From positions 1-32,553 of the IMG/VR virus record IMGVR_UViG_3300034280_000445: DNA of 32,553 bases. The stretch is one strand, 5' to 3'. This document shows, one piece after another, positions 6,009-31,876 of the stretch (position 1 is the first letter of the stretch; every line of letters begins with the position of its first letter). The notes under the pieces are model-generated. The model saw only the letters and a program-made list of their open reading frames with translations, had not been told where the DNA came from and ran no database searches. The stretch comes from a virus. Made by a program: the position numbers and the translations under genes.

Positions 6009-6211
6009 TGTACAACCAGATTGCTATCCACCTCATTGGTGGCACAGCCGAAGTAGCAACGGTGTTGGGCTGCCAGAAGCAGCAGATCCACGCCCTTCGT
6101 AAACGCTTGGACTTTCCAAAGCCGATTACCCAGTTGTCTGCTACTCCTCTGTGGAATCTAGATGAGATCAGAGCGTTTGAACTGACTTGGATTCGCCGTA
6201 AGCGCTCATGA
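6008..6211 (+). CDS. small helix-turn-helix DNA-binding protein, 67 aa
   Basis: A perfect AAGGAG lies 5 nt upstream of the ATG. The protein has the EVATVLGCQKQQIHALRKRLDFPKPI pattern: helix, turn, recognition helix, then the FPxP wing common in excisionase/AlpA-like and MerR-type small phage proteins. It ends with a TPLWNLDEIRAFELTWIRRKR segment typical of that group. It probably acts as a transcriptional regulator or architectural DNA-binding protein. It overlaps the next start by ATGA. Confidence 0.75.
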   Translation: MYNQIAIHLIGGTAEVATVLGCQKQQIHALRKRLDFPKPITQLSATPLWNLDEIRAFELTWIRRKRS

Positions 6212-7269
6212 AGATCGGCTTTGTATCTGGCGACTGGATTAGCCCAGAGCGCACCCATGATGAGAAAGAACGATGGGGAGGATCAGGGTGGGTACGGCTC
6301 GGGCAGTACCGAGATCGTCTTCCATTCAAGACCGTGACTGGCACCCTCTTGTGGAACAAGACGCACTTTGAGGTGGGTACCGATGATGGTGCCATTCATG
6401 ACATTGACGTGGTGTACATGCAGCGGCTGATGCACAGGGGCATTGCAGAGAACATCTCAAAGGCTAAGGCATATGGTCAGAAGATCGTCAACGACGTTGA
6501 CGACTGGTACTGGGGACTTGACCCCAGTAACCACGCATTTCAGGCCAATCACCCAAAGGTCAACGCAGAAGAAAACACGACGTACTACAAGACCACCCTC
6601 GCTCACTCTGACGTGCTGATCGTTAGCACTCCTTACCTTGCTGATCGCATCAGCCGGTTTACCAAAGGAGAGATCGTGGTGAACAGCAACACAGTTGACC
6701 TTGCCCGGTTTACCCCCCGACAGCATGAGGACACCCCCACCCCAATCATTGGCTGGGTAGGGTCTACCTTGCACCGTAGTGGGGATATTGAGACCCTGCG
6801 GGGCATCGTGCCCCCGCTGGTGCGTCAAGGTAAAGCCTCGCTGTACCACGGTGGTGACTATGCCTCTGCGCCCTCGTTTGCTTCTCGCATCGGTGTTGCA
6901 GGGCCTCTAGTGACTACTAAGCCACTTACCGATTACATGGGGTACCCAGATCTCATGTCGATGGACATAGGTATCGTGCCATTGCGAGATGCCCCCTTTA
7001 ACCTTAGCAAGTCTTATCAAAAAGGCATTGAGTACGCAGCAGCAGGAGTGCCCTTTGTAGCACAACATCTAGGTGAGTACATTCGACTAGCACAAGATAT
7101 GGGTATCGGGCGCACTGCTAAGAAGGCCCATGACTGGTTACGTCACATAAGAGAACTTTCTGATGTAGGTGTGCGTCGTGAAGAGGCCATTCGTAACCGA
7201 GAACTAGTCGAAAGTTGCGACATTCGGCACGGTGTAGATAGGCTGACTGACATCTTCGCAAACCTCTGA
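6208..7269 (+). CDS. glycosyltransferase, GT4-like (GT-B fold), 353 aa
   Basis: The protein begins with a Rossmann-like strand (MKIGFVSGDWI). It has the internal NDVDDWYW segment, the interdomain IIGWVGSTLHRSGDIETLRG, and a C-terminal SKSYQKGIEYAAAGVPFVAQ. The last corresponds to the nucleotide-sugar-binding KxxEYxAxGxP motif of GT4-family GT-B enzymes. It would transfer a sugar from a nucleotide donor. The acceptor cannot be inferred; candidates are a virion protein, DNA, or a host surface glycan. It lies between a small HTH gene and the second WhiB-like gene in one continuous operon. Confidence 0.75.
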   Translation: MKIGFVSGDWISPERTHDEKERWGGSGWVRLGQYRDRLPFKTVTGTLLWNKTHFEVGTDDGAIHDIDVVYMQRLMHRGIAENISKAKAYGQKIVNDVDDWYWGLDPSNHAFQANHPKVNAEENTTYYKTTLAHSDVLIVSTPYLADRISRFTKGEIVVNSNTVDLARFTPRQHEDTPTPIIGWVGSTLHRSGDIETLRGIVPPLVRQGKASLYHGGDYASAPSFASRIGVAGPLVTTKPLTDYMGYPDLMSMDIGIVPLRDAPFNLSKSYQKGIEYAAAGVPFVAQHLGEYIRLAQDMGIGRTAKKAHDWLRHIRELSDVGVRREEAIRNRELVESCDIRHGVDRLTDIFANL

Positions 7270-7280
7270 AGGAGTACCCC

Positions 7281-7724
7281 TTGACCACGCTAGAGAACCC
7301 CATGATCCAACTACCAGGCCTAAAGACCTGGGGGACAGGGGGGTGGAGAGCACATGCCAACTGTAAAGGCGCTCCCACAGATGACTTCTTCCCAGAACGT
7401 GGGGAAGGCATTGACAACTCTCTACCAGTGGCCCGTGCTCGGATGCGGTGCATCCCCTGCCCTGTGCGCCTGGAGTGTGTCAAGTTCGCTTTGGACAACA
7501 TCATCACGGATGGCACCTACGGTGGGTTACCCCCCAAGGAGCGCCGCCCTCTGTCAGCGGAAACAGTCACCTTGCATGACATCAAGATCCCTATCAAGAA
7601 GGCAGCGTATTACGCAAAGCGGGCCACGGGCAAACACCCGGTCGGTGTGCTTGCTTCCATCCTGGGCACTACCAAGGAGTGGGTAGAGGACACTCTTCGT
7701 AATGATCCAGATTACCGCGTCTGA
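7281..7724 (+). CDS. WhiB-family iron-sulfur regulator 2, 147 aa
   Basis: TTG start chosen because GGAG lies 6 nt upstream; the first ATG (7302) would remove seven non-conserved residues. Cluster ligands are C28, C57, C60 and C66 (CIPCPVRLEC). They are followed by the signature turn GTYGGLPPKERR. The C-terminal 60 residues have a basic helical segment (IKIPIKKAAYYAKRAT) that could contact DNA or host RNA polymerase. This is the second WhiB-like gene in the same operon. It lacks the extra C-terminal Cys module of the first and diverges outside the core. Confidence 0.85.
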   Translation: MTTLENPMIQLPGLKTWGTGGWRAHANCKGAPTDDFFPERGEGIDNSLPVARARMRCIPCPVRLECVKFALDNIITDGTYGGLPPKERRPLSAETVTLHDIKIPIKKAAYYAKRATGKHPVGVLASILGTTKEWVEDTLRNDPDYRV

Positions 7725-8106
7725 CATTCGCTGGCTCAGGCTCGCCCTTGTGCAGGCAGAGCAAGCCCCTCACGCTCAATGGCGTGTAGGGGCTGCTCTT
7801 GTTCGTGGTGGCAGCATTTTGAGCACTGGGTTCAACCGGTACCGCAACTCACCTGCACAGGTTGAATTGTCTGGTGTTTCATACCACGCTGAGGAAGCGG
7901 CGATACGCAAGGCCGGGAACGTGAAAGGGGCCACGCTGTACGTGGCCCGAATCACTCGTAGTGGTGCCCTTGGTACTGCTAAGCCTTGTGAGCGTTGCCA
8001 AGAGTTGCTGTGGAACAGCGGTGTCCACACCGTGGTGTGGACGACCCCCAAGGGTCTTATGAAAGACCGGCTTTCGGTACTGGCCACTTGTATGGCAAGT
8101 CATTAG
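7702..8106 (+). CDS. cytidine/deoxycytidylate deaminase-family protein, 134 aa
   Basis: Zinc-dependent deaminase motifs are present: H62-A-E64 (the HAE metal ligand and proton shuttle) and P95-C96-xx-C99 (PCERC). The single-domain length fits the cytidine/dCMP deaminase superfamily. The substrate could be a free nucleoside or nucleotide, feeding thymidylate synthesis, or a nucleic acid. The gene overlaps the preceding WhiB gene by 23 nt. Its last 50 nt overlap a gene on the opposite strand, with no obvious bidirectional terminator. Confidence 0.8.
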   Translation: MIQITASDIRWLRLALVQAEQAPHAQWRVGAALVRGGSILSTGFNRYRNSPAQVELSGVSYHAEEAAIRKAGNVKGATLYVARITRSGALGTAKPCERCQELLWNSGVHTVVWTTPKGLMKDRLSVLATCMASH

Positions 8107-8509
8107 GAACGCCCACCCACAACGGCCCGTAGTAAGCGGGATCTTTGCGGATTAGGTTTGACCTGTGTGATATTGCGACATCCATATCAAAGAGGAAGTT
8201 GGGCAGGTTGAACCTCTGGATCGGCAGGTCCAGGTCTACCAAAGGGAACATCTTTTCCACCTTCTCTTTCACGGTGTCTTGGTAGCCTCGCCAAACCCAC
8301 TCATCACAGATGCACGCCGTGTACTTGGCTAGTGCTTCTTCGTAGCCTTCCCACATCTTTACGGCAGGGTGGTTTGCCCAACCCTTGGACAGGCCTAGCA
8401 GCGTGTTGAGGATCTGCAAGCCTTCTACTCTTTGCTTACCGAGTCTTTGCCGGTCTAATACCAATGCGTTAGACCCAAACCAGTGACCATATGGAATGAA
8501 CGTTTGCAT
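8057..8509 (-). CDS. MSMEG_6728-type / pyrimidine-dimer-glycosylase-like protein, 150 aa
   Basis: The N-terminus (MQTFIPYGHWFGSNALVLDRQRLGKQRVE) matches the MSMEG_6728 family pattern of an N-terminal strand, then LDxxRLGKQRVE. The later segment AISHRSNLIRKDPAYYG resembles the C-terminal AISQARL...YYG part of T4-type pyrimidine-dimer DNA glycosylase. This suggests recognition or cleavage of damaged bases, although activity for this family is not established as far as I know. It is the last gene of the long minus-strand series and converges on the deaminase gene, overlapping it by 50 nt. Confidence 0.75.
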   Translation of the reverse strand: MQTFIPYGHWFGSNALVLDRQRLGKQRVEGLQILNTLLGLSKGWANHPAVKMWEGYEEALAKYTACICDEWVWRGYQDTVKEKVEKMFPLVDLDLPIQRFNLPNFLFDMDVAISHRSNLIRKDPAYYGPLWVGVPNDLPYKWPVPKAGLS

Positions 8510-14056: not shown

Positions 14057-15946
14057 CTAGGCAAGGAACCCTGAGAGGGCCTTGCGGAACTGGTTTGGCA
14101 AGTCGTCCAGGCTGCGGATGAGTACCGCAGCGTTGGGGCGCTTCTTGGTGAGGATGGCGTCGTTCCATATCCGAAGACCGACGAGAACGAAGTAGCGCCC
14201 AGGGGATGACCACGGGGCAAGGGTGGTCACGGCGTCGTCCCATTCACCATCGGTGAGGATGAAGACAAGGTGCCGCTTCATATCCAAGCGTTGGCTATCC
14301 AACTTGTCAAGTAGTGGGGACGGCTCGGTACCTCCAGAGGGGCCGACCATCGTGGGTATGATGGCTTCATCGTGTTTGTAAACAACACCATATTCGGTGT
14401 TATAGGTGCTTACGGTGCACGGAATACCGATGTAATCGCACGCTTGACGAATGGCCAGTGCACATATCGACAGGCTTTCGGTGTCGTTGCACATTGAATA
14501 TGAGGTGTCAAGCATGACGGATACCGACAGGTCATATCCCTGTTGGCCTTGTTCATCCAGCCCCGACCAGTAGTCGGTGTCACCAGGCTCCCGCATCATA
14601 TAGGACGTGGGGTCTAGCACTCCTGTCTCTTGTCGAAACCGCCAGGAGGGGCTGGTGTGGTCGATCAGGTGCTCCAAGGCACCCACGACCCGATTGGTGA
14701 TGGCATCAGCCTTTGCACGATTGTCTGCGTTCATCAACTTGCAGGTTGTATCACGAGGTAGGTCACCGGTGAGGTCGTTGTGGATGGACTCAACGAACAC
14801 CTGTGCTTCTAACTTGAAGGAGTCACGCAGGTCACTCAGTGCTTTTTGGACCTCATTACCCACATCGCTAGTAGCCCCGCCAGCCCCGTTACCAGGGATG
14901 GGACTGGACTCTGGTACGTCGGCGTGTTCGGATTCTGGTTCAGCCACGCCCTCTTGAATGTTCCCCTTGTCATTACCGTTCTCCTTGTTGTTTTGCTTAC
15001 CACTTGATATTGGTCGGACAGATTGCTTCGCATCAGCCACCTGCTTGGCAGGACTTCTGCGGGATGCAGTCTCCATGTGCCTGGACTCATGGTTTTCGCT
15101 CAGTAGGCCCCACTGGCTCATGTCTTGCACAAACTTCTCAAACGCAACGAACATCTCATCTATGTTCTGTGCTGTTGAGTACTCTTCAATGCTCTGTCGA
15201 AGAGTCTCAACAAGGTGCGCCAGTTTTGGTGTATTGAGAGCGTCATCGTGAATAGCGTCGTAGATGTTGGCAGGTAGGTACTTGCGCCCAGCAATGTACG
15301 GCCATGAAAGTGTTGGGTTTTCGTCGTTGATCACCACGTTGAGAGCGGTCGTGGTGAAGTACCGGGCCAACGCTGGGGAGGCCAGTACCATGGCCCGCTC
15401 CATTCGTTGGTCTTCGATGATGTTCCAACAGCGGTGCACAAAGCCGTCACCATAAGTGTTGCCCAGTCTCATCAGGTGCACGCCATTTTCGACACTGACG
15501 TACAGCGACCACGACCGTAGTTGTTCGGTGTACAGGACGTGACCACCCTCATGGTAGATGGCACCCTTTACAATAGATATGAACTCCGCCACGGATTCCA
15601 TATCGTTGAGGTTCACACGCTTGGTGTCAACCTCAACGACGATCTGACGGAAGTCGGTGTAAGCCTTGACCGGGACTGGCCAACTGGGGTCCTGCAACTC
15701 TCCAACCAACACGTTGGCTGTGACGTTGAAGGAGTTGAGCACTTTGGTGGCCAAGGTGGCTGTGTTGAACAGGATGGACTGACGGGTACGCCGGTCACGG
15801 TCGGCTTTGGGGTTGAACGCTTGGGCACGTACCAGCGCTCGTAATGCGTACTCTCGCCGGTCTTTGTCAGCAGCAATTCGCTGGTTACGGATGGAGTCAC
15901 GTACTTTGTTACGTGTGCGTGCATATGCACCGTTTGTCTTTGCCAT
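14057..15946 (-). CDS. CobT-like VWA protein with HEGGH metallopeptidase-like motif, 629 aa
   Basis: The C-terminal VWA domain (about 470-629) has a complete MIDAS set: D480-T-S482-Y-S484, T540 in SGGTEP, and D566 in LTDGEWDD. The N-terminal half contains H132-E-G-G-H136 and, about 40 residues later, NIIEDQRMER (E178/D179). This HExxH plus EDxR(I/M)E arrangement is known from VWA proteins of the CobT/DUF2201 type and suggests a zincin-like site. The middle (about 285-375) is acidic, Gly/Asn-rich and disordered. It starts in a TAATG overlap right after the AAA+ gene, so the two are co-translated. Such VWA partners act as adaptors or substrate-binders for MoxR-group ATPases. A true role in cobaltochelation is unlikely here because no cobalamin gene is visible. 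Confidence 0.85.
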   Translation of the reverse strand: MAKTNGAYARTRNKVRDSIRNQRIAADKDRREYALRALVRAQAFNPKADRDRRTRQSILFNTATLATKVLNSFNVTANVLVGELQDPSWPVPVKAYTDFRQIVVEVDTKRVNLNDMESVAEFISIVKGAIYHEGGHVLYTEQLRSWSLYVSVENGVHLMRLGNTYGDGFVHRCWNIIEDQRMERAMVLASPALARYFTTTALNVVINDENPTLSWPYIAGRKYLPANIYDAIHDDALNTPKLAHLVETLRQSIEEYSTAQNIDEMFVAFEKFVQDMSQWGLLSENHESRHMETASRRSPAKQVADAKQSVRPISSGKQNNKENGNDKGNIQEGVAEPESEHADVPESSPIPGNGAGGATSDVGNEVQKALSDLRDSFKLEAQVFVESIHNDLTGDLPRDTTCKLMNADNRAKADAITNRVVGALEHLIDHTSPSWRFRQETGVLDPTSYMMREPGDTDYWSGLDEQGQQGYDLSVSVMLDTSYSMCNDTESLSICALAIRQACDYIGIPCTVSTYNTEYGVVYKHDEAIIPTMVGPSGGTEPSPLLDKLDSQRLDMKRHLVFILTDGEWDDAVTTLAPWSSPGRYFVLVGLRIWNDAILTKKRPNAAVLIRSLDDLPNQFRKALSGFLA

Positions 15947-17187
15947 TAGATGGTCTCCCAGGTTGGCGTTGTGGGTCCTGGCGCTGCGGGAGCAGGCGTG
16001 CTGTCGTCGGGTTCTACTGGTGACATCTCCTTTTCGATCATTTCACGGATCGAACGATCACGGATGATCTCTTCGACCACTGCTGCTTCGACCTTGGAGG
16101 TGAACTGCCCGGTGAATGCCCACAAGGCGAAGTCCACACCCAAGTGCACCAAGTCATCCTCCAGACGCTGCAGGGAACTAGTACCCACAGGTGAGGTGAT
16201 TGCACGGGTGTCACGTGCTGTACGCAGAGCCTGACCCAACAGCCGTACTGCGGCTGACTTGATCAACTTCTTCTCTACGTCTTCGTCGTAACCCCAAGGC
16301 AGCCACACGAAGCGGTTGGCGAACGCTTCGTTGGTCTTGGACATACCGGCATAGCCGGGGTTATAGGTGCAGAGCACCCACAGATCAGTGCTGCACTTGA
16401 CGACCTCAGGCATCCACACACCATGCGCACCGGATACGGGCTTGCGGATGTTGACGAAGGAGCGACGGTCGTCAAGTAGCGGGTGCAATGCAGCGGTGAC
16501 GTTACCGGGCATAGCGTTGACCTCATCCAGATACAGGATGCCACCGATACGCGCGGCGAGAGCCACGATGCCTTCCATCCAGCGCAACTGCCCTGTCTCA
16601 TCGGGGCGGTACTGGCCGTACAGGTCGTGGTCGGTGATAGCGGATGAGCCAGCAAGCGTGAACACCGGCAGCGGCTTGGTGAGGCCCATCTTCTTGGCGA
16701 TGACATGTGCCATCAATTCGACCAACATGGTCTTACCTGACTGGGTGTCACCTACGAGCCCGACGTTGATTGGGTACCCGTCCTTGCGGCGTTCCCAGTA
16801 GGAGGTGAGCACGGCGATGTCGTCACGACCACCAGGCAACTTGCGAGAGACGTAATCCTTGCTGATGGACGCTCGTTGCGGACGATATGGGTCAAGCGCT
16901 GGGTCGTCCAGTGAGGTGATCGGCGTAGCGGTGACGATGATGGCAGGTGGGCTGGACGGCGGCATGGTTGCGACGGGCCGCTGGGCAGATGGTGCCCCAG
17001 GCAGGTCAAGCAACTTGGGGATCATCCATTGCTCACCGATGCCGTCGATATTGACAAGCAACTTGCGCTGGTGCTCATGGCCGTCAGGCATGACAGCGGG
17101 GTCAACGATGGTCGCTGACAGGCCACCGAAAGGGCCGGACTTGATGGTGACGAGCATACCTGCCCGTAGTGACTTAGCCGAAGCCAT
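15946..17187 (-). CDS. CobS/MoxR-group AAA+ ATPase with N-terminal KOW-like domain, 413 aa
   Basis: Residues 9-55 (GMLVTIKSGPFGGLSATIVDP) look like a KOW/SH3-type barrel. A Pro-rich linker follows, then the AAA+ core. The core has Walker A G146-DTQSGK-T153, Walker B ILYLDEVN (D221, E222), sensor 1 in CTYNPGYAG (N276) and a likely arginine finger at NRF (R292). MoxR-type helix-2 inserts (DHDLYGQYRPDETGQLRWMEG) are visible. These ATPases form hexamers that remodel proteins with VWA partners. A strong AAGGAG precedes the ATG. A CRP-like palindrome lies 72 nt upstream. Confidence 0.88.
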   Translation of the reverse strand: MASAKSLRAGMLVTIKSGPFGGLSATIVDPAVMPDGHEHQRKLLVNIDGIGEQWMIPKLLDLPGAPSAQRPVATMPPSSPPAIIVTATPITSLDDPALDPYRPQRASISKDYVSRKLPGGRDDIAVLTSYWERRKDGYPINVGLVGDTQSGKTMLVELMAHVIAKKMGLTKPLPVFTLAGSSAITDHDLYGQYRPDETGQLRWMEGIVALAARIGGILYLDEVNAMPGNVTAALHPLLDDRRSFVNIRKPVSGAHGVWMPEVVKCSTDLWVLCTYNPGYAGMSKTNEAFANRFVWLPWGYDEDVEKKLIKSAAVRLLGQALRTARDTRAITSPVGTSSLQRLEDDLVHLGVDFALWAFTGQFTSKVEAAVVEEIIRDRSIREMIEKEMSPVEPDDSTPAPAAPGPTTPTWETI

Positions 17188-17258: not shown

Positions 17259-17274
17259 TGTGACGGATGTCACA
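17259..17274. promoter_or_regulatory. CRP-like palindromic operator before the AAA/VWA operon
   Basis: TGTGACGGATGTCACA fits the TGTGA-N6-TCACA consensus of CRP/FNR-type regulators such as actinobacterial GlxR/Crp. It overlaps the last bases of the small gene at 17270. It lies directly before a TATAAA (17258-17253 on the minus strand) that may be the -10 of the AAA/VWA operon, so a bound factor could regulate it. The rest of the gap (17188-17258) has an imperfect TTGC/GCAA hairpin and no ORF. Confidence 0.5.
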
Positions 17275-17416
17275 CGTCCTCTACTGAGGAGATCATGACC
17301 TCCACATTGTCGACCATCCATGGCGCAATGCTTTGAATGATGTCGTGTAGAGCGATTGCGGTATCCACATCATCTGCATCAAACATGATGTGGATTTCAT
17401 ATGAGCCAGGCTGCAT
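17270..17416 (-). CDS. small acidic hypothetical protein, 48 aa
   Basis: ATG at 17416 with a perfect AAGGAGG site, 9 nt after the SNF2 gene's stop. The sequence looks like a beta-alpha-beta mini-domain (SYEIHIMFDADDVDTAIALHDIIQS). It is acidic, with no Cys motif. It lies between the SNF2 helicase and the AAA/VWA pair and could be a small partner of either. Confidence 0.65.
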   Translation of the reverse strand: MQPGSYEIHIMFDADDVDTAIALHDIIQSIAPWMVDNVEVMISSVEDV

Positions 17417-17425
17417 TAGCCCTCC

Positions 17426-18814
17426 TTATCGGTAAGAGTCAAGGACTCCATCTTGGATGCTTTCCAGTAGGAACTCACCTTCACCGTCGATGAGTTCCCC
17501 TGTCTGAAACGCTTTCTGCTCTAGAACACCCCAGAGGCGTTCATCAATCGTCCAGCGATTCTCTAGTGCGCACAGGGCGATCTCTACCTGTACGTCCTTG
17601 GTTTGCCCGATACGGTGCAGTCGGTCTTCTGCTTGACGCAGGTCGGCAGGGGTCCAGGGTAGTTGTGCTACGACAACCCTGGTGTTTGTACCACCGCCAT
17701 GGAGGGTCAGACCAACACCTGCTGCTGTGACCTGCCCGATCATGACACGCGCTCGGCCTGAAGTAAAGGCGTCCACGGCATCTTGCTTCTCGTAGTCGTC
17801 CATGCCACCCCGTACTTCCACTATGGGGTATCGCAGTTTCAGCCCAAGGGCGTCCATCACATCGTGGTGTTCGGCAACGATGAACACACCGCCCGGTTCG
17901 TTGTCCAGTATGTCGTGTACGTGGTTGACCACGCCGTCCACTTTGGCAAGACCAGCGGTGTGGCGCAAGAGGTTCATACGTACGAGGGCTTCGTTGCGGG
18001 CAGCACCACGCCACTCTCTGTCCTCGCCCATAAGGAAAGCAATCAGGTCATCTTCGATACGGAAGTAATCTCTGGCTGCTTTACCGCTGCCCTCTATTGC
18101 TAGGGCAGTGCGGCCCTTATTGGGCAGTTCGATAACGTCATCACGACGCATACGTATCATGAAGGCCTGCATTGCAGTATGCAGCCCAGGCGTATCGTGA
18201 TTGCCTCTATTGCCGAAGGAGTCACGCCTAGGGCAGTAGTAACTCCAGAACTTACCCTTACCACCGATTGCTTTCCATGCTGTCGGCCCCAGGATATTGA
18301 GTTGCCCTGCTAGTTCAGCATGGCGACCATTTGGTGTGGGAGTACCTGACAACAACACTCGTGGCCCTGCCACTGTGTCCGCAATGCGGGCCATTGCCTT
18401 AGCACGGCCTGCCGTCATATTCTTATGACGGTGGGCTTCGTCAATGATAAGGGTCTTGATGTTATCAAGCAGTGCGTCCTCCCAAGAGGTAAGGACTGAA
18501 TCACCGATGATGAGCACGTCAACGTCGGGCAATTCCTGCATCTTTGTGCTCTTGATGACTGCCCCTGTTAGCCATGGTGCGAATTTGGCGATCTCACGCA
18601 CCCAGTTGGTCCGCAAACTTGGCGGCACCACGATGGCGATGGGGGTCAGTCCTGCTGCTTTGGCGGCGGCAGCAACGCCGATACCTACGGCTGTCTTACC
18701 CAGTCCCATATCTAGGGCTATGTAAGAAGCCTGCACGGACAGTGCGTGATCTAGCGCCGTCTCTTGAAAGTCCAAGAGTGGTGCTGCCAGAGGCACCTTG
18801 GTAAGTGGTGTCAT
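17426..18814 (-). CDS. SNF2-family DEAH helicase, SMARCAL1-like, 462 aa
   Basis: Two RecA-like lobes with all core motifs: Walker A D35-MGLGK-T41, motif Ia (VVPPSLRTNW), motif II D125-EAH128, and motif III SGTP (156-159). In lobe 2, motif V-like MIGQVTAAGVGLTLHG is followed by motif VI Q394-AEDRLHRIGQ404. The short single-chain layout resembles phage SNF2/SMARCAL1-type translocases, which remodel or reanneal DNA during replication and repair. A zinc-like insert is not present. It starts in an ATGA overlap and precedes the AAA/VWA operon by one tiny gene. Confidence 0.9.
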   Translation of the reverse strand: MTPLTKVPLAAPLLDFQETALDHALSVQASYIALDMGLGKTAVGIGVAAAAKAAGLTPIAIVVPPSLRTNWVREIAKFAPWLTGAVIKSTKMQELPDVDVLIIGDSVLTSWEDALLDNIKTLIIDEAHRHKNMTAGRAKAMARIADTVAGPRVLLSGTPTPNGRHAELAGQLNILGPTAWKAIGGKGKFWSYYCPRRDSFGNRGNHDTPGLHTAMQAFMIRMRRDDVIELPNKGRTALAIEGSGKAARDYFRIEDDLIAFLMGEDREWRGAARNEALVRMNLLRHTAGLAKVDGVVNHVHDILDNEPGGVFIVAEHHDVMDALGLKLRYPIVEVRGGMDDYEKQDAVDAFTSGRARVMIGQVTAAGVGLTLHGGGTNTRVVVAQLPWTPADLRQAEDRLHRIGQTKDVQVEIALCALENRWTIDERLWGVLEQKAFQTGELIDGEGEFLLESIQDGVLDSYR

Positions 18815-19709: not shown

Positions 19710-20107
19710 AGGATTGCCTCGTCCAGTATTGTTGGCCCTAACAGGTCTCCTACCCCTGCTGGGACCAACAGCGTCCAATAATCATCCCAGATATCACCGG
19801 CTGAGTTGTCTGACCAGACAACGCCTCGGCCACCCTTGCGGGATACCTGCCAACCAGGGGGGAGTACACGATTCAGTCGGTCGTATGTGGTTGTGGTTAC
19901 ATATCCGCAATCACGGATAGCCACGTAGCCGTTGGGGTACAGGATGGCAATCTTGTGCCCATGCAGGAGCATTCCGATGCCTTGAGTTGGGTCATGCAGA
20001 TTTTGGCGCACCACCTTGGTGTTGTTACATATGGTTGCTTCTGACTTGGTACGCAGGTGCTCTACCAGCGTCTTGAAGGTGTACTTGGGCAGCCGTTTCT
20101 TGGCCAC
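19706..20107 (-). CDS. hypothetical protein, 133 aa
   Basis: GTG start with an AAAGGAG site. Mixed alpha/beta protein with a basic N-terminus (MAKKRLPKYTFKTLVEHLRTK) and a C-terminal hydrophobic stretch (WTLLVPAGVGDLLGPTIL) too polar to be a clear membrane span. No recognised domain. Confidence 0.6.
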   Translation of the reverse strand: MAKKRLPKYTFKTLVEHLRTKSEATICNNTKVVRQNLHDPTQGIGMLLHGHKIAILYPNGYVAIRDCGYVTTTTYDRLNRVLPPGWQVSRKGGRGVVWSDNSAGDIWDDYWTLLVPAGVGDLLGPTILDEAIL

Positions 20108-24193: not shown

Positions 24194-25714
24194 CTAGTAG
24201 CCGTCGTCTTCGTCGTCGTCGTCGTCGTGGGCGCAGGTCTCACACAGGTCGCCATCGTAGGTGTAGGCCCCGCACTCGTAGCAGTGCCTCTCGTCGCACT
24301 CGTCGTCGTCTCCGTCGTCCCTGTACGGGGGAGGCGATGCCGGGCTGTCGTCGGTGGCGTATGGACGAGGTGGGTAATCGTTACCATATGGGTCGTTCTC
24401 GCTCAGGCGTCCGGTCAGGTACACCCCGAGGCGTTTGCCTTTGGCTGCTGCTGCCAGAGCCATCAGCGCCGTGTCGATGTCGTTGCACATATGTGTGCCA
24501 AACGAGCGGGCCATGTCGATGGCCTCCAAGGTCAGGTTGTCCCGATATTGATCGTGTAGGTCGGTAACCAAACCATCACACACCCAGACGAAAGGGTCTG
24601 ATGCGTTGCGCCGCTTGGTTGCAGCGAACGCCAAGGCCGGTCCATCGACGCAGTTGCCACTACCACCGTAAGGCATATCGGCTTCCTTGACGACGCGCCC
24701 TTTCTCGGCCATCACCCACACGTTGGGCTGATCTGTCGTACCGGGAATGTGTGAGTAGCCGATGATGGTGGCACCGGGGGCCATCTGAATGATGTTCCAC
24801 AAGTCGGCATGGTCCAGGTGCATCGAACCCGACTGGTCGATGAGCACGACGCCACCCAGGTCACGGCGGCGGTGCCCGAAGATGCGCTTCTGCGGGTCGA
24901 ACAGCAGCCGAGAGATGTTGCGAGGCACACGCCCGATGTCGCTAGCACGAGGCTTACGACTGTGCACGCCCTTGGCACGACCCTCCAGGGTCACGTCGGA
25001 CAGCACCATAGCGGCCCATCTGCCTTGGTTACGGTTGGGCGGCGGTGGGTTGCGGGGCTTACCCGGTGCGATGTCTGCTGCAAGAGGCTGCGGCATCATC
25101 GAGTTTTGAAGAGAATCTGCAACGGATTGGACGAGCCTCCAGTTGTTGGGGTGGTTGAAGAAGTCGCCGCTCTTGTCCGAGAACTCTGTTTCCGACGTGT
25201 CGGTCAGGCTCTCCATGTCCCAGTAGTCCACCCCGGCTTGCACTCGCTTGAGGTGCTCGTTTGCCAATGTTGACCACTCACGTTTCACGTCAGCGATACC
25301 TGCCAGCAGTTCGTCACCTGCACGGGTACCATAGATGGGTGCCAGTGAGGTGACGATCTCATTCCACTGCTCGTTGCGGGCGAGCAACTGACCACGCTTG
25401 AACTCCGCACCTGTGTGCATGAAGTCCAGGTCTTCGCCCATCTGCCGCATCATGCGGTTGGTGAGCATCTGCTGTGCAGCCTGCAGCACTACGGGCGAGT
25501 AGTAGTACCGATCCCACAGGTACTCCTTGGGAGCAACCTTGGCCATCAGCAGTTGCTGCAGCCTGACGCCCCGATATACGGGGTCATCGCCACCAGGGGC
25601 GATCATGGTGTGGTTACCAACGTCGGTATGGGCCATATGTGGTTGCCCATTCCGAACGGACCACTTGCTGGCCTCGTCATCTTGACGGGTCAGCCATTCG
25701 GGATAAGCGGTCAC
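24194..25714 (-). CDS. VWA-domain protein of the second AAA/VWA module, with zinc-ribbon tail, 506 aa
   Basis: GTG 25714 is chosen because it overlaps the AAA+ stop (GTGA); the longer frame lies inside that gene. Residues 1-250 are helical and lack an HExxH motif. The VWA domain starts at about residue 285, with MIDAS D293-Q-S295-G-S297 in VVLIDQSGSM, the YGGSG segment around residue 350, and VWVCDGLVTD. The C-terminus has a CDERHCYECG...CETC zinc ribbon and a poly-Asp end. VWA partners recruit substrates for MoxR-type ATPases. Unlike the first module's protein, it has no peptidase-like site. Confidence 0.85.
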   Translation of the reverse strand: MTAYPEWLTRQDDEASKWSVRNGQPHMAHTDVGNHTMIAPGGDDPVYRGVRLQQLLMAKVAPKEYLWDRYYYSPVVLQAAQQMLTNRMMRQMGEDLDFMHTGAEFKRGQLLARNEQWNEIVTSLAPIYGTRAGDELLAGIADVKREWSTLANEHLKRVQAGVDYWDMESLTDTSETEFSDKSGDFFNHPNNWRLVQSVADSLQNSMMPQPLAADIAPGKPRNPPPPNRNQGRWAAMVLSDVTLEGRAKGVHSRKPRASDIGRVPRNISRLLFDPQKRIFGHRRRDLGGVVLIDQSGSMHLDHADLWNIIQMAPGATIIGYSHIPGTTDQPNVWVMAEKGRVVKEADMPYGGSGNCVDGPALAFAATKRRNASDPFVWVCDGLVTDLHDQYRDNLTLEAIDMARSFGTHMCNDIDTALMALAAAAKGKRLGVYLTGRLSENDPYGNDYPPRPYATDDSPASPPPYRDDGDDDECDERHCYECGAYTYDGDLCETCAHDDDDDEDDGY

Positions 25715-26460
25715 AGTGCCTCCACTTTCAGGGTGTCGATGATGTACTGGGTCTGCTTGCCGAAGCACAGGCGGGCTGCCTGCTCCAACGGCAGGCTCTT
25801 GCGCAGGTGATCGAACGCCAGGAACGTGCGGATGCTGAACCGGCGGTCACCGGCAGCGTCGGCGCTGGTCTCGGCAGCACGGCGCAGGTCGGGCGACAGG
25901 CGCTCCAACGCAGCAGGGTGCGGACGGTCGATGCGGATGGCGACCGGGAACCTGTCCTTGAGCGCAGCGGGCAGGTCACGCATGTTCTCCACGTTCGTGG
26001 TAGCGACGACGCTGAAGCCGGGACGCGGACGGTGCACCTGCTTGGTGATCGGGTGCTTCCAGTACGCCGACTCGGGCGAGTCGGTCATGCCCAGCATCAT
26101 GGACTCGGCGTCACCGCAGATGCGGTCGATCTCGTCCACGTTGACGCGGCTACCCATCACACCGTCACCCTCCCAGGCTTCGATCATGGGGCCGAGGATG
26201 AACGTCCACTCGTCACCGATGGGCATGGGGTGGCCCACGATCTCACCCTGGGTCATGTCCTCGGTGCACTGGAGACGGTGTGCCATCTGGCCATCCTGCA
26301 GGCCGTAGTGCATGGCAGCGAACGTCTTGCCGGTGCCTGGGGGGCCGAACAGGAGGAGCCGGTCGATGCCGGTGTTGAGCACATCCTGCACTTCTCGCCA
26401 GCAGCCGGTGAGCTTGGGGTCGACGGTGGTGGTGGTGGTGGGGGTCTTCTTGGCAGTCAT
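25711..26460 (-). CDS. MoxR-group AAA+ ATPase of the second AAA/VWA module, 249 aa
   Basis: Compact AAA+ core with no extra N-terminal domain: Walker A G39-PPGTGK-T46, Walker B VNVDEID (D109, E110), sensor 1 VVATTNVEN (N156), and likely arginine finger in LKDRF (R170). The first residues are Thr-rich and disordered. A GGAG ribosome site precedes the ATG, which also overlaps the upstream gene (ATGA). The order ATPase then VWA is the same as in the 14-17 kb module, but the two ATPases are only distantly similar, so this is not a recent duplication. Confidence 0.88.
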   Translation of the reverse strand: MTAKKTPTTTTTVDPKLTGCWREVQDVLNTGIDRLLLFGPPGTGKTFAAMHYGLQDGQMAHRLQCTEDMTQGEIVGHPMPIGDEWTFILGPMIEAWEGDGVMGSRVNVDEIDRICGDAESMMLGMTDSPESAYWKHPITKQVHRPRPGFSVVATTNVENMRDLPAALKDRFPVAIRIDRPHPAALERLSPDLRRAAETSADAAGDRRFSIRTFLAFDHLRKSLPLEQAARLCFGKQTQYIIDTLKVEAL

Positions 26461-27591: not shown

Positions 27592-27652
27592 GTTATTGGC
27601 TAGGCTCTGACGCCAATAACTAAGGGAGTCGCAATATTGCGACTCCCTTAGT
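27592..27652 (-). terminator. 34-bp perfect palindrome plus second hairpin downstream of the tRNA
   Basis: Positions 27619-27652 form a perfect 17+17 bp inverted repeat with no spacer (centre AATATT). Positions 27592-27600 and 27612-27620 form a second 9-bp stem (GTTATTGGC/GCCAATAAC) that shares two bases with it. The palindrome begins at the tRNA discriminator base. As RNA these are back-to-back hairpins that could end transcription and aid 3' processing. As DNA the palindrome could be a protein-binding or cleavage site. Confidence 0.6.
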
Positions 27653-27724
27653 GGGGCGGGTGGGACTTGAACCCACAACCAACTGTTAATAAGACAGGTG
27701 CACTAACCATTGTGCTACCGCCCC
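27652..27724 (-). tRNA. tRNA with anticodon UAU (Ile, AUA codon), no encoded CCA
   Basis: A full cloverleaf of 73 nt can be drawn. The acceptor stem GGGGCGG/CCGCCCC is perfect. The D arm is GCAC/GTGC with GG in the loop. The anticodon stem has one end mismatch (C27-U43) and the loop is CUUAUUA. The T arm is GTGGG/CCCAC with TTCAAGT. Anticodon 34-36 is UAU, reading AUA (Ile). Position 37 is U instead of the expected A, which is odd. The discriminator is A73, and CCA must be added. A tRNA for a rare codon is common in GC-rich-host phages. Confidence 0.85.
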
Positions 27725-30063: not shown

Positions 30064-30110
30064 AAGCACACCTCCCTTCTGGCCCTAAGGCCCTAGAGAA
30101 TCCCCTCATG

Positions 30111-30162
30111 GCAGGGGAGAAGCCCTAATGGCCATAACAAGCCATAAGACTTCTCCCCCTGC
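30111..30162 (-). terminator. long hairpin after the 30164 gene
   Basis: A 12-bp stem (30111-30122 with 30150-30162, one bulged base) encloses an inner ATGGC/GCCAT stem (30128-30132 with 30141-30145). It begins 2 nt after the stop of the 30164 gene on the minus strand. It has no U-tract. Its first arm (minus strand GCAGGGGGAGAAG) resembles the arms of the two hairpins at 30651 and 31106. Confidence 0.5.
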
Positions 30163-30163
30163 T

Positions 30164-30568
30164 TCATGCGTAGAAGTTGACCAGAGCTTCGACCACGCCT
30201 TTACCGACGTACTCGCGGTCTTCATCTTCTTCCATTTCCATGCGGTTGGCCTCCAACACCAACCAGGAGAAGATCTCCTCGCCCTGCTGACCGAGCGTCA
30301 GCGCCAGACGGTGGGCACGCCCCCACCTGGCGCTCGTCCATGCCCGCTCGTAAGCGGGCATGGCATCGGGCAGGTCCCTGCCCGATACGTACCCGAACGT
30401 GTCGAACGCCGACAGATTCGGGTAGGTGTGACGCTCCATCAGGAATCGCCACACCTCTTTCCGATATTCATCGGGGGCGGTCTGGCGGCGCTCCCATTCT
30501 GCGTTCTCACGCAGAATGAGACGGTTGAGGCTATCAGCCTCTTGTGGAGTCATTGCCTTACGCTTCAT
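30164..30568 (-). CDS. helical hypothetical protein, 134 aa
   Basis: ATG with AAGGGGG upstream. All-helical, charged protein (ENAEWERRQTAPDEYRKEVWRFLMERH; EEIFSWLVLEANRMEMEEDEDREYV). No domain recognised. It is one of three stand-alone genes separated by structured repeated intergenic elements. Confidence 0.65.
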   Translation of the reverse strand: MKRKAMTPQEADSLNRLILRENAEWERRQTAPDEYRKEVWRFLMERHTYPNLSAFDTFGYVSGRDLPDAMPAYERAWTSARWGRAHRLALTLGQQGEEIFSWLVLEANRMEMEEDEDREYVGKGVVEALVNFYA

Positions 30569-30618
30569 GATGCCCCCTTAGGGTCACCGGCATTGCCGGG
30601 GCAGGTACTTCCTGCCAT
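30565..30618 (-). CDS. putative leader peptide, 17 aa
   Basis: ATG 30618 is preceded by AAGGAA with 7-nt spacing. The frame (MAGSTCPGNAGDPKGAS) ends in an ATGA overlap with the 30164 gene. Two small hairpins (CCGGC/GCCGG at 30587-30599 and GGCAGG/CCTGCC at 30600-30616) lie within it. It could couple translation or be chance. Confidence 0.3.
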   Translation of the reverse strand: MAGSTCPGNAGDPKGAS

Positions 30619-30626
30619 CAAGGGAT

Positions 30627-30683
30627 TCCTTTTTGGCCCAAGCAGACAGAGCAAGAGACAAGTAATCGCTACTTATCTCCTGC
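30627..30683 (-). repeat. structured intergenic repeat, copy B
   Basis: A 14-bp stem (30651-30664 with 30670-30683, 5-nt loop) starts 20 nt after the stop of the 30703 gene. A 20-odd-nt conserved flank follows (minus strand ...TTGGGCCAAAAAGG at 30640-30627). Two pairs are G-U only on the minus strand, which indicates a minus-strand RNA. It may be a terminator followed by a promoter or leader for the next gene. Confidence 0.6.
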
Positions 30684-30702
30684 CCTTGCTTCCCTTGCTT
30701 CC

Positions 30703-31023
30703 CTAGTCGGACGGGAAGACACCAGCGTCGTAGACGCACTCCACGACGTTGGTGGTGAGGGAGTAGGGGAGGCCGTTGTAGACCCCCTCCACCGTCCACG
30801 GTTCGCCCTTGGTGGGCTTCGTGGCACTGACGACGTTGGACACCACGACGACCGTGGTACGTTCCTCACGGAACGTGCCCCTGTACGCGGTGAACTTGAA
30901 CACGCCGGTGCGCTTGACATGGTGCAGGACGGCAAACTTGTCGCCGCACTTCCCCTCACGGATGGAGAGGACATACTCGTCCCCGTCCACCGTATACACG
31001 GTGCACTCCTTACGCGGGTGCAT
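30703..31023 (-). CDS. beta-rich hypothetical protein, 106 aa
   Basis: ATG with a TTTGGAGG site 5 nt upstream. Dominated by strands (KECTVYTVDGDEYVLSIREGKCGDKFAVLHHVKRTGVFKFTAYRG; ERTTVVVVSNVVS). There are three isolated Cys but no paired motif. No known family. Has its own structured leader on both sides. Confidence 0.65.
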   Translation of the reverse strand: MHPRKECTVYTVDGDEYVLSIREGKCGDKFAVLHHVKRTGVFKFTAYRGTFREERTTVVVVSNVVSATKPTKGEPWTVEGVYNGLPYSLTTNVVECVYDAGVFPSD

Positions 31024-31027
31024 AACA

Positions 31028-31138
31028 CCTCCAAAGCAGTCAAGGAAACACTCCTATCTCCTGCTCTGCCTGCTTAGGCAACCTTTTTCGGCCCAAACGG
31101 ATAGAGCAAGAGATAAGCACTACATGCTTACCTCCTGC
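31028..31138 (-). repeat. structured intergenic repeat, copy A
   Basis: A 14-bp stem (31106-31119 with 31125-31138, 5-nt loop) lies 20 nt after the stop of the 31158 gene. It is followed by the conserved flank (minus strand TTTGGGCCGAAAAAGG) and a second repeat segment at 31028-31082 shared with copy C. Compared with copy B, the pair at 31118/31126 is C-G where B has T-A (30663/30671), a compensatory change. Further pairs differ by G-U exchange. Confidence 0.65.
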
Positions 31139-31157
31139 AGAGGGGGGGGAACTACTA

Positions 31158-31523
31158 CTACTGGAGGAACGTTACCGATTCCTCGCACGACTCGCACCAG
31201 TAACCGGGTCGCTCCACTGCCACCTCGTGGCACTTGTAGCACACGATGGCGCAGTTGCTGTGCTGTTCCAAGAACGATGCCTTACGCTCTTGGGACACAG
31301 GAACGTACCGCTCGTCCTCGTCATCGAACCATTCCAGCGTCAGGCGGTTACCGCAGGCACACATCCAGGTCACGGGTGCGGGTTCGCCAAAGGCGTCGTA
31401 CCCGCTTTCCGGCCCATAGGAGTGGTGCCCGATGCGGGTTGCCTTGATGCACGTGGGCAGTTGCACTGCCTCCTTGCGCACCCCGTCGATGGGTCGTCGG
31501 GTCAGGTCGTACACCCAGTCCAT
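31158..31523 (-). CDS. hypothetical protein with two zinc-ribbon motifs, 121 aa
   Basis: ATG with AGGAGG 6 nt upstream. A central WMCACGNRL and a C-terminal CYKCHEVAVERPGYWCESCEESV (CxxC...CxxC) form a probable zinc ribbon, with a further HSNC nearby. First gene of the minus arm after the regulatory region at 31.5-31.9 kb. Function unknown. Confidence 0.7.
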   Translation of the reverse strand: MDWVYDLTRRPIDGVRKEAVQLPTCIKATRIGHHSYGPESGYDAFGEPAPVTWMCACGNRLTLEWFDDEDERYVPVSQERKASFLEQHSNCAIVCYKCHEVAVERPGYWCESCEESVTFLQ

Positions 31524-31528
31524 ATACG

Positions 31529-31583
31529 CCTCCTAAGCAGTCAAGGGTATATCCCTATCTCCTGCTCTATCCGCTTAGGCCAT
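31529..31583 (-). repeat. intergenic repeat, copy C (leader of the 31158 gene)
   Basis: About 55 bp matching 31028-31082 with roughly a dozen differences, including the ribosome site (CCTCC on the plus strand). The small stem varies in parallel: AGGA...TCCT in copy A and AGGG...CCCT here. It lacks the 14-bp hairpin because no gene ends immediately upstream. Confidence 0.6.
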
Positions 31584-31587
31584 TACA

Positions 31588-31876
31588 TGCGACATTAGTC
31601 ACCCACAGATATTGCTATCCACAGGCTATCCGCTACCTGGCATCCATATGATTTATTGCTATTTCACATGGCTACCACCTATGGCATCCGGCCACAGCAG
31701 CGCATGTGCCACACCCGCTGAGCCATAGGCCCAAGCATAGGGGTGTGACAAATGTCACATGCCCTAATGGTGTGACAAATGTCACAGTGTGACAAATGTC
31801 ACATACGGATGCCTACATGCCTGGACGTGCGCTCGTTTGCGGCGGGCACACGCCCAGGCATGTGACATATGTCGCA
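31588..31876. promoter_or_regulatory. cluster of CRP-like palindromes in a 410-nt non-coding region
   Basis: TGTGACAAATGTCACA occurs exactly three times (31744-31759, 31771-31786, 31788-31803). A near copy TGTGACATATGTCGCA is at 31861-31876, and a weaker one, TGCGACATTAGTCACC, at 31588-31603. The exact sites fit TGTGA-N6-TCACA of CRP/FNR-type regulators. A CTATCCACA at 31614-31622 is one base from a DnaA box. The whole stretch 31524-31933 has no credible ORF. It may be the control region of the minus operon, or part of an origin. Confidence 0.6.

Follow-up and report, generated by a model that had tools for sequence, protein, structure and literature searches.

We analyzed an entire IMG/VR record of an uncultured virus, 32,553 bases long (hereafter the window), and found that each of three consecutive stand-alone genes in its rightmost block carries, in its 5' leader, an arm complementary to an arm in its own 3' trailer. 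The leader module (C) is complementary to the 3' half, plus an extension, of the trailer module (B) across the same gene, a relation missed by an earlier, sequence-only reading of this DNA. These C-B pairs are probably mRNA leader-trailer helices in modular single-gene cassettes, and may serve end protection and/or processing. The block is read leftwards on the minus strand and starts with gene 1 (31158..31523, 121 aa), gene 2 (30703..31023, 106 aa) and gene 3 (30164..30568, 134 aa), followed by denser genes. No family match was obtained for any of the three, and a comparison of genes 1 and 2 revealed no homology. Start codons were set by inspection. Matches to Rfam above the gathering score were restricted to a single tRNA in the window and to tRNAs in the related contigs L051 and L067. 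One tRNA-Ile(tat) was placed by ARAGORN at 27651-27724 (minus strand), inside the leftward gene block.

At the DNA level, none of 50,697 named phage records matches the window, and tblastn searches with three of its proteins gave no match in named phages. Relatives were found through its AAA-ATPase (25711-26460); they are uncultured viruses and six bacterial MAG contigs, five of them actinobacterial. We found no relatives of gene 1, nor of two cassette genes of the related loci L063 and L067, in viral contigs beyond the same contigs and L051.

The arms lie just outside the translated unit. In the 5' leader of gene 1, C1 (31554..31581; GGCCTAAGCGGATAGAGCAGGAGATAGG) pairs with B1 in the trailer (31090..31117), whose 5' part is also the 3' half of a local hairpin, A1-B1. 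The resulting helix encloses gene 1 with 28-29 bp (24 Watson-Crick and 4 G.U) and no internal mismatch, and the Shine-Dalgarno sequence of the gene (AGGAGG, 31529..31534) falls inside the loop. Gene 2 is enclosed in the same way by C2 (31053..31079) and B2 (30636..30662), with 27 bp, of which 22 are Watson-Crick and 5 are G.U, again without internal mismatches. In both helices every internal deviation is a G.U pair in the mRNA sense. Around gene 3, the arms C3 (30611..30629), which is unrelated in sequence, and B3 (30097..30115), which overlaps by 5 nt the end of a hairpin at 30111-30162, form 19 bp with 16 Watson-Crick pairs, 2 G.U and 1 mismatch. All these features are on the minus strand, and the window arms are not palindromic. 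Across the cassettes of this study, the leader arm stops 4-42 nt short of the start codon, and the trailer arm sets in 0-48 nt past the stop codon.

On the transcribed strand of the window, C1-B1 and C2-B2 score highest among all inverted repeats within 1.5 kb (50.5 and 46.5), against a maximum of 34 in ten shuffles of the whole window, and none of 2000 UTR shuffles reached either score. The C3-B3 pairing was equaled by 2 of 2000 shuffles. Between C1-B1 and C2-B2 six pairs vary: two are double changes (G-C/A-U and U-A/C-G), three are wobble-compatible single changes, and the outermost pair is broken in the gene-2 copy. The covariation of the window copies was equaled by 134 of 500 shuffles (control a), so a comparison of two sequences is not decisive and the argument rests on related contigs.

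The earlier reading had centered on local hairpins and leader copies, and much of its description holds. The hairpins A1-B1 (31106..31138; -22.1 kcal/mol, z -6.4) and A2-B2 (30651..30683; -22.4 kcal/mol, z -6.4), both on the minus strand, fold better than all of 200 shuffles each. The first base of each is the 20th nt past the stop codon of its gene (31138 for a stop ending at 31158, and 30683 for one ending at 30703). They have the flank GGGCC(G)AAAAAGG, and they differ by one double change (C-G/T-A) and by exchanges that pair solely as G.U on the minus strand. Also present are the two leader copies (31025-31079 and 31526-31580), which share 82% identity, and their small stem covaries (AGGG..CCCT/AGGA..TCCT). 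The proposal of a repeated RNA element is supported, as pairing is maintained through compensatory and sense-strand G.U changes. What it called a related hairpin directly 3' of gene 3 (30111..30162, minus strand; -36.3 kcal/mol, z -6.4) is a real and strong fold, but it is alike in position only and its sequence is unrelated. Its other suggestion, a terminator-plus-leader cassette, was right in that the flanks are a module reused around unrelated ORFs; yet the two modules are not independent, since together they make up a single long-range helix around each gene, and termination is unsupported. As intrinsic terminators the hairpins were rejected: they were not listed by a pattern scan and no U-tract lies behind them on the minus strand. 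As a separate observation, A1 contains at 31120-31136 (minus strand) the string AGGAGG-TAAGC-ATG-TAG, i.e., a ribosome site and a start-stop mini-ORF, which is absent from A2.

There are no further sequence copies of the modules within the window, and blastn, pattern scans and nhmmer revealed none elsewhere. Six pattern matches in unrelated contigs lack a nearby inverted partner and are apparently chance matches in coding sequence. As a sequence-level search, the covariance model that had been suggested for finding further copies would be unsuccessful, since the relatives share the architecture but differ in sequence. Built from the two copies, and given that the arms of the relatives are unrelated, such a model would recover only itself.

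B1 has three possible partners, namely A1, C2 and C1. The B1-A1 hairpin (-22.1 kcal/mol) and a B1-C2 hairpin (-35.2 kcal/mol, with two internal mismatches) are mutually exclusive, and the B1-C1 duplex has a predicted energy of -53.2. One might thus propose a local attenuator or terminator, in which the choice between A-B and B-C2 at the junction of genes 1 and 2 sets read-through and the distant C1 is irrelevant, all the more since A-B covaries too. We consider this very unlikely: B1-C2 has two internal mismatches where C1-B1 and C2-B2 have none, the U-tract is missing, there is no copy of C behind gene 2 or of B ahead of gene 1, and B1-C2 has a probability of 0.00 in the joint fold. In that equilibrium fold of a 1490-nt three-gene transcript, all three loops form side by side (C1:B1 0.90, C2:B2 0.68, C3:B3 0.83), with A2:B2 at 0.46. 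Folding nine cassettes of the window, L067 and L063 brought the arms together at 0.68-0.93, and three cassettes of L168 at 0.87-0.98. These models suggest three separate closed loops in the window, A-B being a local and probably earlier structure. The window arms are not gene-specific, since C1 fits B2 (duplex -54.0) as well as it fits B1.

To look for the architecture elsewhere, we scanned about 75 loci for single ORFs flanked by inverted repeats, scoring G.U and A.C alike, and L067, L051, L063 and the window were among the top scorers. The layout is reused in these relatives and in G005 (L168), where single ORFs are bracketed by different, gene-specific arms. The bracketed ORFs are 6211-6795, 7435-7692, 7805-8179 and about 8650-8958 in L067; 441-728, 829-1116 and 1638-1946 in L051; 5788-6360, 6613-6846 and 6953-7270 in L063; and 15339-15980, 16887-17141 and 17288-17731 in G005, with arms of 18, 17 and 15 bp. 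In the first of the latter, the 3' arm starts at the base right after the stop codon. We arrived at G005 via L089, which lies on this contig and is among the closest ATPase relatives of L063. The related contigs are partial. Because L051 and L067 are closely related to each other, three or four independent phages are represented besides the window. A wider set of relatives (80 viral and 6 genome loci, including the contig of L067) otherwise had operator-like or unbiased repeats only; one closer relative, G005, carries the brackets. A near-perfect 29-bp inverted repeat in L069 (6258-7015) has its arms at two gene ends, and was left out of the count because it encloses several short ORFs. Long stretches in which we identified no gene precede the ORF position that we call slot a in L051 (1-436), L067 (7024-7430) and L168 (about 16050-16840), and possibly encode a structured noncoding RNA. 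Those of L051 and L067 are 91% identical and lack an Rfam match.

The deviations from Watson-Crick pairing bear on whether the arms pair as RNA. The 11 curated stems comprise 225 Watson-Crick pairs, 35 G.U, 2 A.C and 12 others. Their G.U:A.C ratio of 35:2 compares with 27:36 in gene-flanking repeats of other contigs (Fisher p 1e-7); the curated arm limits were chosen by hand, and the uncurated, strand-neutral ratio is about 44:5. Mutation bias is not a likely cause of this excess, since the sense strand has no G/T bias (G+T of 0.38-0.53 at fourfold sites and 0.49 in UTRs). Among the slot-a arms of L067, L051 and L168, 98% of positions pair and the helix is nowhere broken internally, although three pairs differ by double changes and two by wobble changes; slid controls gave 25-56% pairing and no double change. 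These patterns argue that pairing is conserved at the RNA level, with the proviso that single-stranded DNA, if folded, would show a strand bias of the same sign. They also bear on a reading in which the repeats arise by chance or are operator palindromes, i.e., DNA-binding sites that flank genes and have no RNA role. Palindromic sites do yield gene-flanking repeats, as in phiC31 (CCTACTCACGTGAGTAGG), L044, L036 and others. Yet the window arms are non-palindromic, the repeats of other contigs show no G.U bias, and the five named phages examined had no comparable non-palindromic brackets, which makes this already disfavored reading highly improbable.

The related contigs also show gene exchange within a constant paired format. 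L051 and L067 can be aligned up to CTAATGATTAG on one side of a second position, slot b, and again from CTAATGATTAG on the other; in between, their ORFs and inner arms differ. At slot a the ORF has been swapped and the arms are retained. The ORF that L051 carries in slot a has homologs in slot b of L067 (51% over 55 aa) and in slot a of L168 (58% over 71 aa). Genes 1 and 2 of the window, with related arms and unrelated ORFs, look the same as this exchange pattern. The early regions of these phages, and only these regions, harbor clustered 11-bp palindromes, CTAATSATTAG in L051, L063 and L067 and CTAGTSACTAG in L088, L089 and L168, which are likely operators or stoperators. One CTAATSATTAG pair borders the exchanged cassette in L051/L067. 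CTAATSATTAG is missing from the window, even allowing one mismatch, and the arms are there all the same, hence this motif is not needed for the arms.

Such exchange could mean that the cassettes exist at the DNA level, the arms being terminal inverted repeats or recombination half-sites (attC-like when circular) that serve gene exchange and not the mRNA. The matching flanks of slot b around differing ORFs and arms would fit this, as would the arms shared by unrelated ORFs in the window and the long palindrome that the arms would form once joined; folding of single-stranded DNA would also favor G.T over A.C. Against it, slot a keeps its arms while the ORF changes, nearly all deviations are G.U when read in the mRNA sense, we saw no target-site duplication at the arms of the window, and these arms occur without CTAATSATTAG. 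We therefore regard DNA-level cassettes as rather unlikely. Integron cassettes and other mobile elements bounded by inverted repeats resemble the present ones in being tandem single-gene cassettes of conserved structure and variable sequence. However, the integron attC sits 3' of the gene, and the window lacks a conserved core site and has its G.U bias in the mRNA sense.

As mRNA leader-trailer helices, which is the more probable reading, the arms could act as follows. Each of the three stand-alone genes is assumed to be transcribed leftwards with its complementary C and B arms on one RNA. The C-B helix would close the mRNA into a loop containing the ribosome site, the ORF and the stop codon. 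It would place both mRNA ends in double-stranded RNA and may so shield the small message from end-dependent RNases. Additionally or alternatively, RNase III may cut the helix and thereby release the individual genes from a longer transcript, just as the leader-trailer helices of pre-rRNA are RNase III substrates. In the window, B would fold first with A just past the gene, and C would then invade via the unpaired 3' extension of B, used as a toehold, resulting in an ordered switch from a hairpin-ended nascent transcript to a closed loop. Long helices could just as well expose the message to decay by RNase III. As a more tentative and rather doubtful extension, this phage group (probably actinobacterial) might pack its small accessory genes as swappable closed-loop cassettes in a sequence-independent format, which would allow unrelated genes to be exchanged while stability or processing is maintained, with an A-B to C-B switch in the phage of the window.

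The helices might also act on translation, either because the leader arm masks the ribosome site until this arm is bound by the trailer, which would check that the mRNA is complete, or because the trailer blocks the site, as in hok and icaR. The leader arms do contain short segments complementary to the ribosome site of the same gene (in the window, CCTAAGC/GCTTAGG), and in L063 6613-6846 the predicted accessibility of the Shine-Dalgarno sequence rises from 0.00 to 0.31 on closing. In the other eight folded cassettes, however, accessibility in the closed form is the same or slightly lower, and the arms lie outside the ribosome site, upstream of it, so that a translation switch seems quite improbable.

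Among described systems, the leader-trailer helices of 16S and 23S pre-rRNA (PMC10250234) share with the putative phage helices the formation of a long helix from sequences flanking one unit and, presumably, the presence of several units per transcript; in both, complementary arms lie directly outside each unit. The phage unit differs in being a small protein-coding gene with arms of about 17-30 bp, and the format is shared or exchanged among unrelated genes. In icaR mRNA (PMC3868564) and hok mRNA, two UTRs of one bacterial mRNA likewise pair intramolecularly. Such pairing is deemed rare, icaR being presented as singular (PMC3868564). In those single genes, translation is blocked by pairing of the trailer with the Shine-Dalgarno region; in the phage, the ribosome site is not part of the arms, and every one of several consecutive genes has a pair of its own. 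We rejected a fold-back of the icaR/hok type, given arms upstream of the Shine-Dalgarno sequence and mostly unchanged accessibility.

The SAS/ESAS elements of cluster K mycobacteriophages (PMC3203893) are also repeats upstream of stand-alone small genes, by the ribosome site. ESAS are 17 bp inverted repeats placed together upstream of one gene, with a spacer of mostly 4-13 bp, and their authors found little support for an mRNA hairpin (PMC3203893). Membership in either class was rejected: the 13-bp SAS sequence (GGGATAGGAGCCC) matches the window once, at 19744 and with 2 mismatches, which is the chance expectation, and close inverted repeats upstream of one gene occur only at B1-C2, while leader 1 has no left repeat and gene 3 no right repeat. 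A search of the open-access literature revealed no description of such brackets around phage genes; as far as we found there, the layout is known from rRNA precursors and is not described for runs of phage mRNAs.

If a run of phage genes is indeed enclosed in covarying helices, this would suggest that closed-loop mRNAs can be a general format, and it would explain the long gaps around stand-alone phage genes. The arms would then provide short tags for testing whether mRNA closure protects. They would also caution that inverted repeats flanking phage genes are not necessarily DNA elements.

On the promoter side, the window has palindromes (TGTGACAAATGTCACA) that fit the CRP/GlxR consensus TGTGA-N6-TCACA, at 31744-31876 and 17259-17274. 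Three exact sites and one degenerate site lie upstream of gene 1, one exact site lies at 17259, and 1 of 100 shuffles has as many. L020 carries three CRP/GlxR-like sites at the matching place (7758-7852). Judging from these motifs, control of a phage promoter by a cAMP receptor protein is possible.
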